The position numbers were made by a program, and so were the translations under genes. From Natrialba swarupiae (lineage in GTDB: Archaea; Halobacteriota; Halobacteria; Halobacteriales; Natrialbaceae), in contig NZ_VTAW01000002.1 in assembly GCF_008245225.1 (NCBI RefSeq), positions 62,001-126,000 on the forward strand: DNA of 64,000 nt, written 5' to 3'. The notes below the pieces were generated by a model that was not told the origin of the DNA, made no database searches, and was given only the letters and a program-made list of their open reading frames with translations. Shown piece after piece: positions 17,742-22,244 of the stretch. Each line of letters starts with the position of its first letter. Positions within the stretch are counted from its first letter, which is position 1.

Positions 17742-18539
17742 TCAGGCCTCGAGCGCCAGTCCCGCCTTCTCGAGGGCCTCCTCCGCTGCGAGGTCGTCGT
17801 GAACGACGCCTGAGACGGCGGCCGCGATGGCTTCGGGGTTCTCGTGTTGGAAGATCGATCGTCCCATCGAGATGCCCGCGCCGCCGGCGTCTACCGCGCC
17901 GCGGACCATCTCGATCGTCTCTCGGTCGGTACCTTTCGAGCCGCCCGCGATGACGACCGGGAGTCGGGTAGATTCGACGACGTGCTGGAAGCTGTCGGCG
18001 TCGCCGCTGTAGCCGGTCTTGACGAGGTCCGCGCCGAGTTCCTCGGCGAGTCGGACCGCGTGGCCGAGCGCCTCGGGGTCCTCGGGGTCGACGCCGGGGC
18101 CGCGCGCGTAGGCCATCGCGAGGACGGGGATGCCGAACCGGTCGGCGTCCGCGGTGATCTCCGAGAGCTGGGTAATCTGGTCCGGTTCGTGATCCGAGCC
18201 GACGTTGATGTGAAAGGAGACGGCGTCCGCGCCGGCGCGGATCGCTTCCTCGACGGTGCCAGTTAGCCGCTTGTCGTTTTCGTCCGGGCCGATCGTCGTC
18301 GAACCGTTGAGGTGGACGATGTAGCCTTTCCCGTTTTTGTTGTCGTGGACGCGCGGGGCGATCCCTTTCTGGGTGAGGACGGCGTCTGCGCCGCCGCTCG
18401 TTACGCCGTCGATCGTCGATTCGATCGCTTTCAGCCCCTGGACGGCCCCCATCGTGATACCGTGGTCCATCGGGACGATGACGTACGATCCATCTGTGCC
18501 GATTCGCTCGAGTCGTGCCTGAGTACCTGTCGCGGTCAT
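17742..18539 (-). CDS. 2-amino-3,7-dideoxy-D-threo-hept-6-ulosonate (ADTH) synthase
   Basis: 265 residues, class I aldolase TIM barrel. P-M-D-H-G near the N-terminus, H-L-N-G-S-T, the Y-A-R-G-P-G loop and the Schiff-base lysine in D-L-V-K-T-G-Y-S-G match archaeal ADTH synthase (the MJ0400 type) rather than plain fructose-bisphosphate aldolase. It makes the first committed intermediate of the archaeal route to 3-dehydroquinate and so to chorismate. It is the last gene behind trpA (24-nt gap), consistent with joint control of aromatic precursor and tryptophan synthesis. Confidence 0.88.
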   Translation of the reverse strand: MTATGTQARLERIGTDGSYVIVPMDHGITMGAVQGLKAIESTIDGVTSGGADAVLTQKGIAPRVHDNKNGKGYIVHLNGSTTIGPDENDKRLTGTVEEAIRAGADAVSFHINVGSDHEPDQITQLSEITADADRFGIPVLAMAYARGPGVDPEDPEALGHAVRLAEELGADLVKTGYSGDADSFQHVVESTRLPVVIAGGSKGTDRETIEMVRGAVDAGGAGISMGRSIFQHENPEAIAAAVSGVVHDDLAAEEALEKAGLALEA

Positions 18540-18563: not shown

Positions 18564-19484
18564 TTATGGCTGTTCTGGTTCCGGTGTGTCTTTCGGGGGG
18601 GTGGTTTCGTCCGCACCACGGATCGCGCCCGCTTTGAGTTCGTGGGCTTTCGCTTCCAGGGCGTCTGCGGCCGGCGCGTCGCCGTCGGAGCCGTGTTCGG
18701 CGACGATATCGACGAGCGCGCTGCCGACGATGACGCCGTCGGCGCCCGCTTCGACGATCTCCGCGGCGTGATCGCCCTCGCTGACGCCGAAACCGACCGC
18801 TTTCGGAACACCGTCGTACTCCGCGAGGCGCGCGAGGCTGTCGTGGGTCGCGTTCGAGACGTCCCCACGAGCCCCCGTGGTTCCGAGTCGAGCCTGGACG
18901 TACGCGAAGCCCGACACCTGGGACATGATCCGCTCGAGGCGCTCGCCCTCGGTCGTCGGCGCGACGATGAAGACGAGATCGAGGCCGTGTTCGTCGCAGG
19001 CGTCGCGAAGCGGATCGGCCTCCTCTGCCGGGAGGTCGGGGACGATGATCCCCGACAGTCCCGCGTCCGCGGCGCGTTCGACGAACGGTCCGACGCCAGG
19101 TCCGCCCCGCAGGGAAGCGCCGTCGGTTCCCGGCGCATCTGCCGTCTCGGCCGCCTCGTACTGGAGGATCATGTTGTAGTAGGTCATCACCAGCAACGGC
19201 GCGTCGGTCTCGAGTTCGTCGACGAGTTCGAAAAAGCCCTGGGGGGAGGTGCCAGCCCCGAGCGCGCGATCGATCGAGGCCTGAATCGTCGGCCCCTCCG
19301 CGATCGGCTCCGAGAACGGGAGGCCGAGTTCGATCAGATCCGCGCCGCCGCGGTCGAGTGCCTCGACGTACGCCGCCGTCGCCTCGAGGGAGGGATCGCC
19401 CGCACAGACGTAGGTGATGAGCGCGGGATGGTTGTCGCGGATGGCCGTCTCGATCTCGCTTTCGATTGTGTCGTCGTCGCTCAT
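18564..19484 (-). CDS. trpA: Tryptophan synthase alpha subunit
   Basis: 306 residues, TIM barrel. It cleaves indole-3-glycerol phosphate and passes indole to TrpB. The catalytic Glu is in [11 protein letters not shown] (E52). The position of the second catalytic acid of enteric TrpA (Asp60) is Glu here (I-A-E-G-P-T-I-Q). Other landmarks: [13 protein letters not shown], and the phosphate loops G-F-G-V-S and V-G-S-A-L-V. An insertion of about 20 Gly/Asp-rich residues follows the M-T-Y-Y-N strand, and the C-terminus has a 25-residue tail rich in Pro and Glu. Overlaps trpB by 4 nt. Confidence 0.95.
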
Positions 19485-20878
19485 CGATCGAACACCTCCA
19501 CGTCCGGCGCGGCCGCGAGATCACGCGTTTCGGTCTCCTCGAGTACCGTTTCGAGGTCCTTGTCGCCGCGCCCGGAGAGGTTGACGACGACCACGTCGCC
19601 CAGATCCGCCGATCCGTCGGCGTCGGGGCCCGCCACCTCTTCGAGATAGCCGAGCGCGTGACTCGACTCGAGTGCGGGAATGATCCCCTCGAGCCTGGAG
19701 AGTCGGTGGAACGCCTCGAGTGCGGCCTCGTCGCCGACGCTTTCCGGCATCACGCGGCCGGTCTCGACGAGGTGGGAGAGTTCGGGGCCGACGCCGGCGT
19801 AGTCCAGTCCCGCGCTGACGCTGTGTGATTCGACGATCTGGCCGTCCCCGCGCTGGAGGAGTTTGGTCATCGCGCCGTGAAGCACGCCGTCGGTCCCGGT
19901 CGAAAGCGTCGCGGAGTTGGGCGCGAGACCCATCTCCTCGTCGATCTCGAGACTCGAGCCGCCGGCCTCGACGGCGACGAGGTCGACGTGCTCTCGCGGT
20001 TCGGTTTGCTCGCCGTCGTCTCGCGGCTGCGCCGCTTGACTGTCCGCGGAACTTCGTTCCGCGCTACTCGAGTCAGCCCCGGACCGTGGCTCCGCGCTGT
20101 CCGGCACGAAGGCGTAGAACGCCCCCATCGTGTTCGACCCGCCGCCGGCACAGGCGACGACGCTGTCGGGAAGTTGCCCCGCTTGCTCGCGGATCTGTTC
20201 GCGGGCCTCCTGTCCGATAACGGCCTGGAAGTCCCGAACCATCTTCGGGAACGGATGGGGGCCGACGACGCTCCCGATGACGTAATGAGTCGTCTCGACG
20301 GTGGTCGCCCAGTCGCGCATCGTCTCGTTGATCGCCTCCTTCAGGGTTCCGCTGCCGGCCGTGACGGGGTTGACCTCCGCGCCGTTCATCCGCATCCGGT
20401 AGACGTTCGGCCGCTGGCGGTTGACGTCGGTCCGCCCCATGTAGATCTCACAGGGCACATCCAGGTGAGCCGCCGCCATCGCCGTCGCCGTCCCGTGCTG
20501 GCCGGCACCGGTCTCGGCGATGATCCGCTCTTTGCCCATGTACTTCGCGAGCAGCACCTGGCCGAGCGCGTTGTTCAGTTTGTGCGCGCCGCCGTGGACG
20601 AGGTCCTCGCGTTTGAGGTAGATCTCTCGGTCGTACCGATCGCTTAGTCGACCTGCGCGCTGGAGCGGTGTCGGCCGGCCACCGAACTCGCACATTCGCT
20701 CGCGGAACTCGTCCATAAAGCCGTCCTCGTTTGCGAGGACGTACCGTTCGTAGGCGTCCTCGAGTTCGAGGATCGCTGGCATCAACGCCTCGGGGACGTA
20801 CCGTCCGCCGTACTCGCCGAACGTGGTCGTGCTATCTCGTCTGTCCTCGCCGTCGCGGTCTCGATCGCTCGTGGTCAT
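19481..20878 (-). CDS. trpB: Tryptophan synthase beta subunit
   Basis: 465 residues, longer than the usual 390-420. PLP lysine in G-G-A-H-K-L-N-N (K100), catalytic Glu in A-E-T-G-A-G-Q-H-G (E122), and the phosphate cup G-G-G-S-N (245-249). It is a TrpB1-type subunit, matching its place beside trpA. A low-complexity Ser/Asp/Glu-rich insertion occupies about residues 261-296, between the G-G-G-S-N region and the next core strand. Overlaps trpC by 4 nt (ATGA) and trpA by 4 nt, so the three are translationally coupled. Confidence 0.96.
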
Positions 20879-21681
20879 GTCTGGTGTTCTGAATCGGTCG
20901 CGTCCTCGGCTCGGGTCAGCCGCCGCGTGTTCTCGCGGACGTCCGTTTCGCCCGCGCCGTGGTCCATGATCGCGCTCCCGACGAGCAGGGCGTCAGCGCC
21001 GGCCGCGCGCATCCGGCGGACGTCCGCCGGCGTCGACACCCCGCTCTCGGCGATCAGCGTGACGTCCGCGGGCGCTTGCGGTGCGACCGTCTCGAACGTC
21101 TCGAGGTCGACCTCGAGACGCGTCAGGTCCCGATTATTTATGCCGACGATCTCCGCACCCGCCGCGAGCGCCGCTTCCAGTTCGTCGCCGTCGTGAACTT
21201 CGACGAGCGGCTGGAACCCGCGTTTCCGTGCGGCCGTGACGAGCCCCTCGAGGTCGTCGACGAACCGGGCGATCAACAAGAAGAGATCGGCGTCGACGAT
21301 GTCCATCCCCGACTCCGCGAGGACGAAATCCTTGCGGAGGACGGGGACGTCGACCGCGTCGCGGATTCGAGTCAACGCCTCCGGTGAACCGCCGAACTGC
21401 GTCGGCTCGGTGAGCACCGAGATCGCCGCCGCCCCGCCGTCGACCATCGCCTCGGCCAGTTCGACCGGATCGTCGGGCCGCGTCCCGTCGGCGGTCGGAC
21501 TCGTCGGTTTCACCTCCGCGATCACTGGAACCCGACCGTCAGCTTCTGCCTGTGCGATCGCGTCCGGGAACGAGCGTGCGTCGACGGAGACGTTGTCGCG
21601 GTCACGGCTGTCTTCGGCCCGCTCCCGTGCGGCCTCGAGAATCGACTCCACCGCGGGGGCGAGTGCCGTTTCGGAGTTCAT
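20875..21681 (-). CDS. trpC: Indole-3-glycerol phosphate synthase
   Basis: 268 residues from ATG 21681. Landmarks of Trp[11 protein letters not shown] (catalytic Lys, K58), [20 protein letters not shown] and I-A-E-S-G-V. It closes the indole ring from carboxyphenylamino-deoxyribulose phosphate. It heads the trpC-trpB-trpA-ADTHS operon; trpD, trpE, trpF and trpG are absent here and presumably elsewhere, the usual haloarchaeal split. The frame continues to 21756, but the promoter/operator palindrome lies at 21684-21711, so 21681 is the start. Confidence 0.95.
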
Positions 21682-21683
21682 TG

Positions 21684-21711
21684 TTGTACATCGACGTACT
21701 AATATGTACAA
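21684..21711 (-). promoter_or_regulatory. Palindromic TGTACA operator overlapping the trpC promoter
   Basis: TTGTACAT (21684-21691) and ATGTACAA (21704-21711) are perfect inverted repeats separated by 12 nt. A third GTAC sits exactly on the dyad axis (21696-21699), giving GTAC cores spaced every 10 bp, one helical turn. The element ends 3 nt before the trpC ATG and includes the A/T-rich stretch where a leaderless gene needs its TATA box, so a bound protein should block TBP. The methanogen trp repressor TrpY recognises TGTACA boxes; a similar regulator here is inference. Confidence 0.65.
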
Positions 21712-21773
21712 AAGGCTTGCGCCATCGATCCGGACCGGCGAATATTCAAGTCCCATCCGGCTAGGTACTACGC

Positions 21774-22244
21774 ATGGACGACGCCGACGCCGGAATCTAC
21801 GCGCGGGAATCGTCGTACTTAGACCGGTACGTGCAGGTCGGTGCGGCGAGCGGGCGCGTCATCAGCGTCTCGTTTCCCGACCTCCCGGACGAGGAGGCCG
21901 TAGACGACGACCACCCGGTTCTCGAGCGCATCTTCGAGTATCTCGACGGGCTCGAGCCCGTCACGTTCGAGGACGTACAGGTCGGACTCACGATCCCGAC
22001 CGACCAGCGTGCAGTCTTAGAGCAGGTACAGGGAATCCCGTACGGCGACCAGGTCACCGTCGAGAGCCTCGTCCGCATGACTCCGGACCTCGATCCCGAC
22101 GACGAGGACGACGTCATTCTCGTCAGAACGGCACTGGCGGAGAATCCGACGCCGCTGTTGATCCCGGACCACCGCATCCGCGACGGGCCGAGTGCCGCAC
22201 CGCCCCAGGTCGAGCAGAAGTTCCGGTCGCTCGAGGAACTGTAG
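21774..22244 (+). CDS. MGMT-like protein with Asp in place of the alkyl-acceptor Cys
   Basis: 156 residues. The second half follows the O6-alkylguanine-DNA alkyltransferase fold: [12 protein letters not shown], an Arg-containing helix ([11 protein letters not shown]) and the active-site segment L-L-I-P-D-H-R-I (130-135), where normal enzymes have P-C-H-R. D132 therefore replaces the acceptor cysteine and suicide transfer is not expected. It may be an alkyltransferase-like (ATL) damage-recognition protein; in known ATLs the Cys is usually Trp. Divergent from trpC with 92 nt between starts. Confidence 0.7.

Follow-up and report, generated by a model that had tools for sequence, protein, structure and literature searches.

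Helically phased cores at the trp promoters of Halobacteriales, a putative operator with a candidate TrpY-family regulator

Introduction

What controls the tryptophan genes of haloarchaea, and does the short symmetric element directly before trpC in Natrialba swarupiae belong to the answer? Both trp operons of Halobacterium salinarum are induced in the absence of aromatic amino acids (PMC4162585), those of Har. hispanica depend indirectly on TrmB (PMC10817205), and the direct regulator of haloarchaeal trp operons was left open in both studies. For Haloferax volcanii, PMC13147458, citing Large 2007, describes control of the native trpCBA promoter as not tight. We followed up a sequence-only reading of a 64 kb window (by which we mean the whole stretch of DNA analysed), which had noticed a palindrome with three GTAC cores at the trpC promoter and had raised the idea of a TrpY-like or other aromatic-amino-acid repressor. 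TGTACA is the core of the TRP box bound by TrpY in Methanothermobacter thermautotrophicus, where trpY is autoregulated, lies next to the trp operon and shares a promoter region with it.

Results

The element stands at the head of an operon encoded on the minus strand. This operon begins with trpC for indole-3-glycerol phosphate synthase (20875-21681; PF00218, 231 bits; NF041303 haloarchaeal TrpC, 412 bits), followed by trpB for the beta subunit of tryptophan synthase (19481-20878, minus strand; TIGR00263, 574 bits) and trpA for the alpha subunit (18564-19484, minus strand), an open frame overlapping trpB. The gene order trpC-trpB-trpA given by the sequence-only reading was borne out, by family matches for trpC and trpB and by position and sequence for trpA. 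At the operon end lies an open frame for an aldolase-like protein (17742-18539, minus strand), the apparent counterpart of OE1472F, which acts first in the haloarchaeal aromatic pathway and is part of the trpCBA-OE1472F operon of H. salinarum (PMC4162585). The arrangement here is that of H. salinarum, with the last two genes named from sequence, gene order and this analogy alone. Upstream, a divergent gene (21774-22244, plus strand) weakly matched a methylated-DNA methyltransferase DNA-binding domain (PF01035, 25.4 bits, below the cut-off of 27) and is, as far as seen, outside the trp regulon. Upstream of the box (window 21740-21770), several Natrialbaceae (L012, L030, L035, L056, L062) have in common a CTTGAATATTCGCCGG-like stretch that probably belongs to this methyltransferase-like gene.

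Direct reading of the window at 21684-21711 gave TTGTACATCGACGTACTAATATGTACAA, so that the sequence, coordinates and three 10-bp-spaced GTAC cores reported earlier were correct. The 28 positions are laid out as TTGTACAT-CGAC-GTAC-TAAT-ATGTACAA, and from this reading and from its conservation we regard the element as the putative operator of the trpCBA promoter, with the general form TTGTACAT-N4-GTAC-N4-ATGTACAA. Both arms are perfect inverted copies, the middle GTAC sits on the dyad and 20 of the 28 positions are self-complementary. The cores start at 21686, 21696 and 21706, in steps of exactly 10 bp. Only 2 nt (21682-21683) separate the element from the trpC ATG (21681-21679, minus strand), relative to which the cores occupy -8 to -5 (21686-21689), -18 to -15 (21696-21699, on the dyad) and -28 to -25 (21706-21709, overlapping the TATA box). 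The element overlaps a BRE/TATA-like sequence, CGCAAGCCTTTTG, whose distance by position suits a leaderless transcript; this putative promoter element (CGCAAG-CCTTTTG, -40 to -28, 21709-21721, minus strand), assigned by position and consensus, lies partly within the operator.

TGTACA was found 8 times in the 64 kb window (2.3 expected), and six of these copies lie outside the element. The spaced pair TGTACA-N14-TGTACA occurred once in the window and had a single perfect match in the 4.2 Mb genome. Neither this pair nor GTAC-N6-GTAC-N6-GTAC appeared in 300 simulated 64 kb sequences (Markov, with the window's nearest-neighbour statistics), and the analytic expectations per window are about 0.001 and about 0.006, respectively.

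The alignment of trpC upstream regions from many haloarchaea, which the sequence-only reading had proposed as a check, showed conservation concentrated on the box. Among 44 distinct Natrialbaceae the information content was 1.80 bits per column at -42 to -1 versus 0.17 at -120 to -46, and 1.60 in the first 30 coding bases of trpC. The frame of the box was preserved at 1.31 bits in 16 more distant haloarchaea (Halogeometricum, Halorubrum, Halorussus, Natronomonas, Halosimplex, Halovenus and others). It was also present in 40 further trpC loci from nine families (f1, f4, f5, f6, f7, f10, f12, f13, f17), where the ATG directly followed the 40-column block in all 40 and homology to trpC started there in nearly all. 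The G and C of each core (-28, -18, -8) were invariant in all 37 distinct boxes from the nine families, with every other position at 30% or less; CGCAAG and CTT[A/T]TG are near-invariant across Halobacteriales. The inner core bases vary outside Natrialbaceae (GTAC, GTCC, GTGC, GTTC), the variable base of the central core being the third (GTnC), and the rule is therefore G-n-n-C every 10 bp, not a perfect palindrome. Thus the symmetric palindrome with three GTAC cores holds here and in Natrialbaceae, but the order-wide form is looser, TGnnCA / GTnC / TGnnCA at 10-bp steps. The most divergent trpC boxes were those of loci L211 and L213 (genomes G261 and G300); by eye, G261 has cores GTAC, GACC, GTAC and GAAC at 0, 10, 20 and 30, a four-core form resembling the layout at trpD described below.

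A profile built from sequence only, using 22 diverse trpC upstream regions (R1), gave one strong match in the Natrialba genome (E 2.6e-11). Absence of the box upstream of trpC in relatives, which the sequence-only reading had named as evidence against itself, was looked for with this profile: the box proved near-universal and fixed in position, with 207 of 214 Halobacteriales genomes carrying it, nearly always once, and 175 of 176 high-quality genomes. Among the seven without a match, G152, G204, G223 and G246 were incomplete and also had no trpC match, and in G300 trpC was present with a weak box. These genomes thus offer no natural loss of trp to compare with the presence of TrpY.

One family, f9, differed in the placement of the box, as R1 matched there in two places, between trpC and trpB (the trpBA promoter) and before trpD. 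The box between trpC and trpB (L204, L205, L208, L201 in G147, G158, G132, G168) implies that trpBA has its own promoter and that trpC lies outside the boxed unit. Upstream of trpD, three f9 genomes bear a trpC-type box (0, 10, 20), and since the box stands before trpB and trpD in this family, it tracks trp operons. The boxed trpD of locus L215 is adjoined by P-II-like and ammonium-transporter-like genes (named by eye).

Because of the match before trpD in f9, we examined trpD upstream regions in the rest of the order. Of 70 such regions, 66 share TTAAG..aTGtAC-N4-tTGnnCATtaCAAg.C.A...GTACATtGGtG. The G..C cores of this element stand at phase 0, 10 and 30 in 97, 98 and 89% of 64 distinct copies, with an invariant C where a fourth core would stand (phase 20, a half core), and lie just downstream of a TATA-like box. 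A second profile built from the trpD element (R2) located the Natrialba copy at G000:C60:11847-11903 (E 6.2e-12), followed by trpD, trpF, trpE and trpG; a weak second match of R1 in this genome falls on the same site. At E < 0.1 the two independent profiles together matched only the two trp promoters of the genome.

We also carried out the search for a co-occurring regulator that had been suggested with the sequence-only reading. An ACT-domain search of the genome combined with reading of open frames led to a 167-residue protein (G000:C49:49231-49719) that scores 233 bits with NCBIfam NF053754 (TrpY family transcription regulator), above its curated cut-off of 180. Members of this family were detected in 206-208 of 214 Halobacteriales genomes and in every one of the 176 of high quality; TrpY-family proteins were likewise present in 190 of 197 Halobacteriota genomes. 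The predicted structure of the candidate (pLDDT 92.7) consists of an N-terminal helical domain and a C-terminal ACT domain. Helices 13-25, 44-50 and 55-67 are modelled at high confidence and are compatible with an HTH, the domain being read within the whole model. Residues 83-167 are predicted to fold as an ACT domain, matching regulatory ACT domains at Z about 10 and that of TyrR at 9.2, and the Pfam ACT match was below the gathering score (E 1.6e-4). A sequence search of solved structures returned only spurious ankyrin matches and one ACT match. Kinship of the model with Lrp/AsnC was dropped, as Foldseek matches to HTH+RAM chains at TM about 0.3 were too weak.

The trp loci of the genome are unlinked to trpY (trpY on contig C49, trpC on C37, trpD on C60), and no trp gene was found within about 3.5 kb of the TrpY-family gene in 37 loci (L374-L410) from Halobacteriota outside Halobacteriales. 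With the family in 190 of 197 Halobacteriota and none of these 37 loci trp-linked, its presence alone says little. Autoregulation of haloarchaeal trpY through the box was rejected because the box was absent upstream of all 31 trpY genes inspected. The promoters of the 37 loci contained at most a lone TGTACA (L375, L381, L408). At L381 and L408 it lies shortly upstream of the TrpY-family gene in the common context CCTTTGTACAGGGACT, and it is possible that this is an autoregulatory site outside haloarchaea.

Co-variation was assessed in 29 genomes. The N-terminal part of TrpY differs by 10% on average between them and the ACT part by 31%. Box distances correlated with TrpY N-terminal distances at rho 0.59 and with TrpC distances at 0.21; given TrpC, the partial correlation was 0.57 for the N-terminal part (permutation 0.0005) and 0.28 for the ACT part, in a set that leans to high-scoring TrpY proteins, with TrpC serving as an imperfect proxy for a species tree and no control regulators. 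This co-variation weakly favours TrpY as the protein reading the box.

Discussion

On the comparisons made here, the element is real, extends over the whole order and most probably serves as a trp operator of a known kind; the design of its phased cores is unusual, and its candidate regulator is plausible. We hold with high confidence that it is a trp operator, and the palindrome before trpC is very probably an on/off switch of tryptophan synthesis. If it is an operator, TrpY is its probable reader. The joint reading, a trp operator placed over the TATA box and start site and bound by an ACT-domain repressor, most likely of the TrpY family, we rate somewhat above an even chance. The sequence comparisons establish the site and its conservation, its tie to both trp operons, its place over the promoter and the occurrence of a TrpY-family protein, whereas we infer repression as the mode of control, tryptophan as the signal and the identity of the protein.

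The site would act as duplex DNA, presenting three GnnC cores on the same side of the helix, each a full turn from the next. At trpC, whose transcript would be leaderless, the cores would run from the TATA box as far as about -4; as they reach -5 with the ATG next to them, transcription probably begins at the ATG or close to it, and the site would be read as DNA and not as RNA. With tryptophan (or aromatic amino acids) plentiful, an ACT-domain protein, most likely the TrpY-family regulator with its predicted HTH-like and ACT domains, would occupy the phased cores. It would then block TBP/TFB at trpC, or RNA polymerase at trpD, where the cores lie downstream of the TATA-like box. When tryptophan is scarce the protein would leave and both operons would be transcribed. 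The ten-bp phasing suggests that neighbouring protein subunits line up along a single face of the DNA. That H. salinarum induces both trp operons when aromatic amino acids are missing (PMC4162585) fits such tryptophan-dependent repression.

Other accounts have to be weighed against this one. The same operator could be read by a different protein responsive to aromatic amino acids, either of the Lrp/AsnC type (e.g. LrpA2/Trh1 of H. salinarum) or TrmB-like. Omitting aromatic amino acids induces LrpA2 14.9-fold, and LrpA2 has been put forward as a pathway regulator (PMC4162585); in Har. hispanica, deletion of trmB lowers both trp operons though neither TrmB binding nor its motif was found there, and the TrmB homologue HAH_0923 was suggested (PMC10817205). 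Lrp proteins likewise combine an HTH with an ACT-like domain, and Foldseek lists Lrp for the TrpY model. However, R1 and R2 gave no third clear site in the Natrialba genome, so that no regulator gene here carries the box, and TGTACA is the core known for TrpY and, to our knowledge, not for Lrp or TrmB. We therefore consider another reader unlikely. Instead of repressing, the protein could be an activator or have a dual role, bending promoter DNA and assisting TBP/TFB; this seems improbable to us, even though Tar, the trp regulator of Thermococcus kodakarensis, is an activator (PMC6737238). Cores phased so strictly at 10 bp and set at a constant distance from TATA could also serve a protein that works together with the basal machinery, but the trpC cores lie on and downstream of TATA as far as -4, where a protein would block assembly, and the trpD cores lie downstream of TATA. 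Archaeal activators usually bind upstream of the BRE.

Could it be that no specific regulator is involved and that the conservation only reflects a leaderless gene with an unusually strong core promoter? The left arm does overlap TATA and BRE, and the ATG comes immediately after; yet no basal promoter element accounts for the invariant G..C at -18 and -8, the same 10-bp-phased cores recur at trpD in a different position relative to TATA, and R1 matches no other (non-trp) promoter in the genome. This explanation is very improbable. A chance palindrome is refuted, both by the expectation of about one in a thousand windows and by conservation over an entire order.

For the repressor reading, the TrpY-like protein of the sequence-only proposal is supported indirectly, in that the family occurs in all 176 high-quality genomes and the core equals that of the TRP box. 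Against it, trpY does not lie beside trp and has no box in its promoter, and the TrpY homologue of T. kodakarensis does not regulate trp (PMC6737238). The less than tight control described for the native H. volcanii trpCBA promoter also counts against the scheme. The broadest version of our scheme, an order-wide regulon of two trp operons under a single unlinked and non-autoregulated TrpY-family repressor that reads phased GnnC arrays (0/10/20 at trpC, 0/10/30 at trpD), probably through side-by-side subunits, might be right with about an even chance.

As in M. thermautotrophicus, several copies of a TGTACA core lie over a trp promoter and a regulator of the same family (NF053754) is encoded in the genome; unlike there, haloarchaeal trpY is unlinked to trp and without a box of its own, and the trp genes form two separate operons with one element each. 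In the haloarchaea, core spacing keeps strictly to 10-bp steps (0/10/20 or 0/10/30), and the distance to the ATG is fixed. Tar (TK0271) is likewise one regulator for several aromatic amino acid operons but differs in being an activator encoded in an aro operon. The Lrp/AsnC proteins of Halobacterium (Trh proteins, LrpA1, LrpA2) share the combination of an HTH with a ligand-binding ACT-like domain and a role in amino acid metabolism, and LrpA2 responds to aromatic amino acid starvation. For LrpA1, the proposed binding site is an inverted repeat in its own promoter, at -31 to -25 and -12 to -6 (PMC2894021), and no Lrp site at trp is reported in the literature surveyed. If the best explanation holds, the likeness to bacterial TrpR and its operator would consist in a tryptophan-dependent repressor over a trp promoter, the bacterial protein and site being unrelated to the haloarchaeal ones.

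Conclusions

We found no description of the element in the open-access literature searched; the older subscription literature on Haloferax trp genes may mention a shared promoter sequence. With a conserved element at both operons and a named candidate, the regulator question can be put directly to the test in Haloferax volcanii or Halobacterium salinarum, and the answer bears on the tryptophan-inducible expression tools used in Haloferax. If true, the proposed control would answer what regulates the haloarchaeal trp operons and would indicate that TrpY-family proteins can control trp without gene linkage. It would thereby assign a function to a family that is present in nearly all Halobacteriota and has been characterised for trp in one methanogen only.
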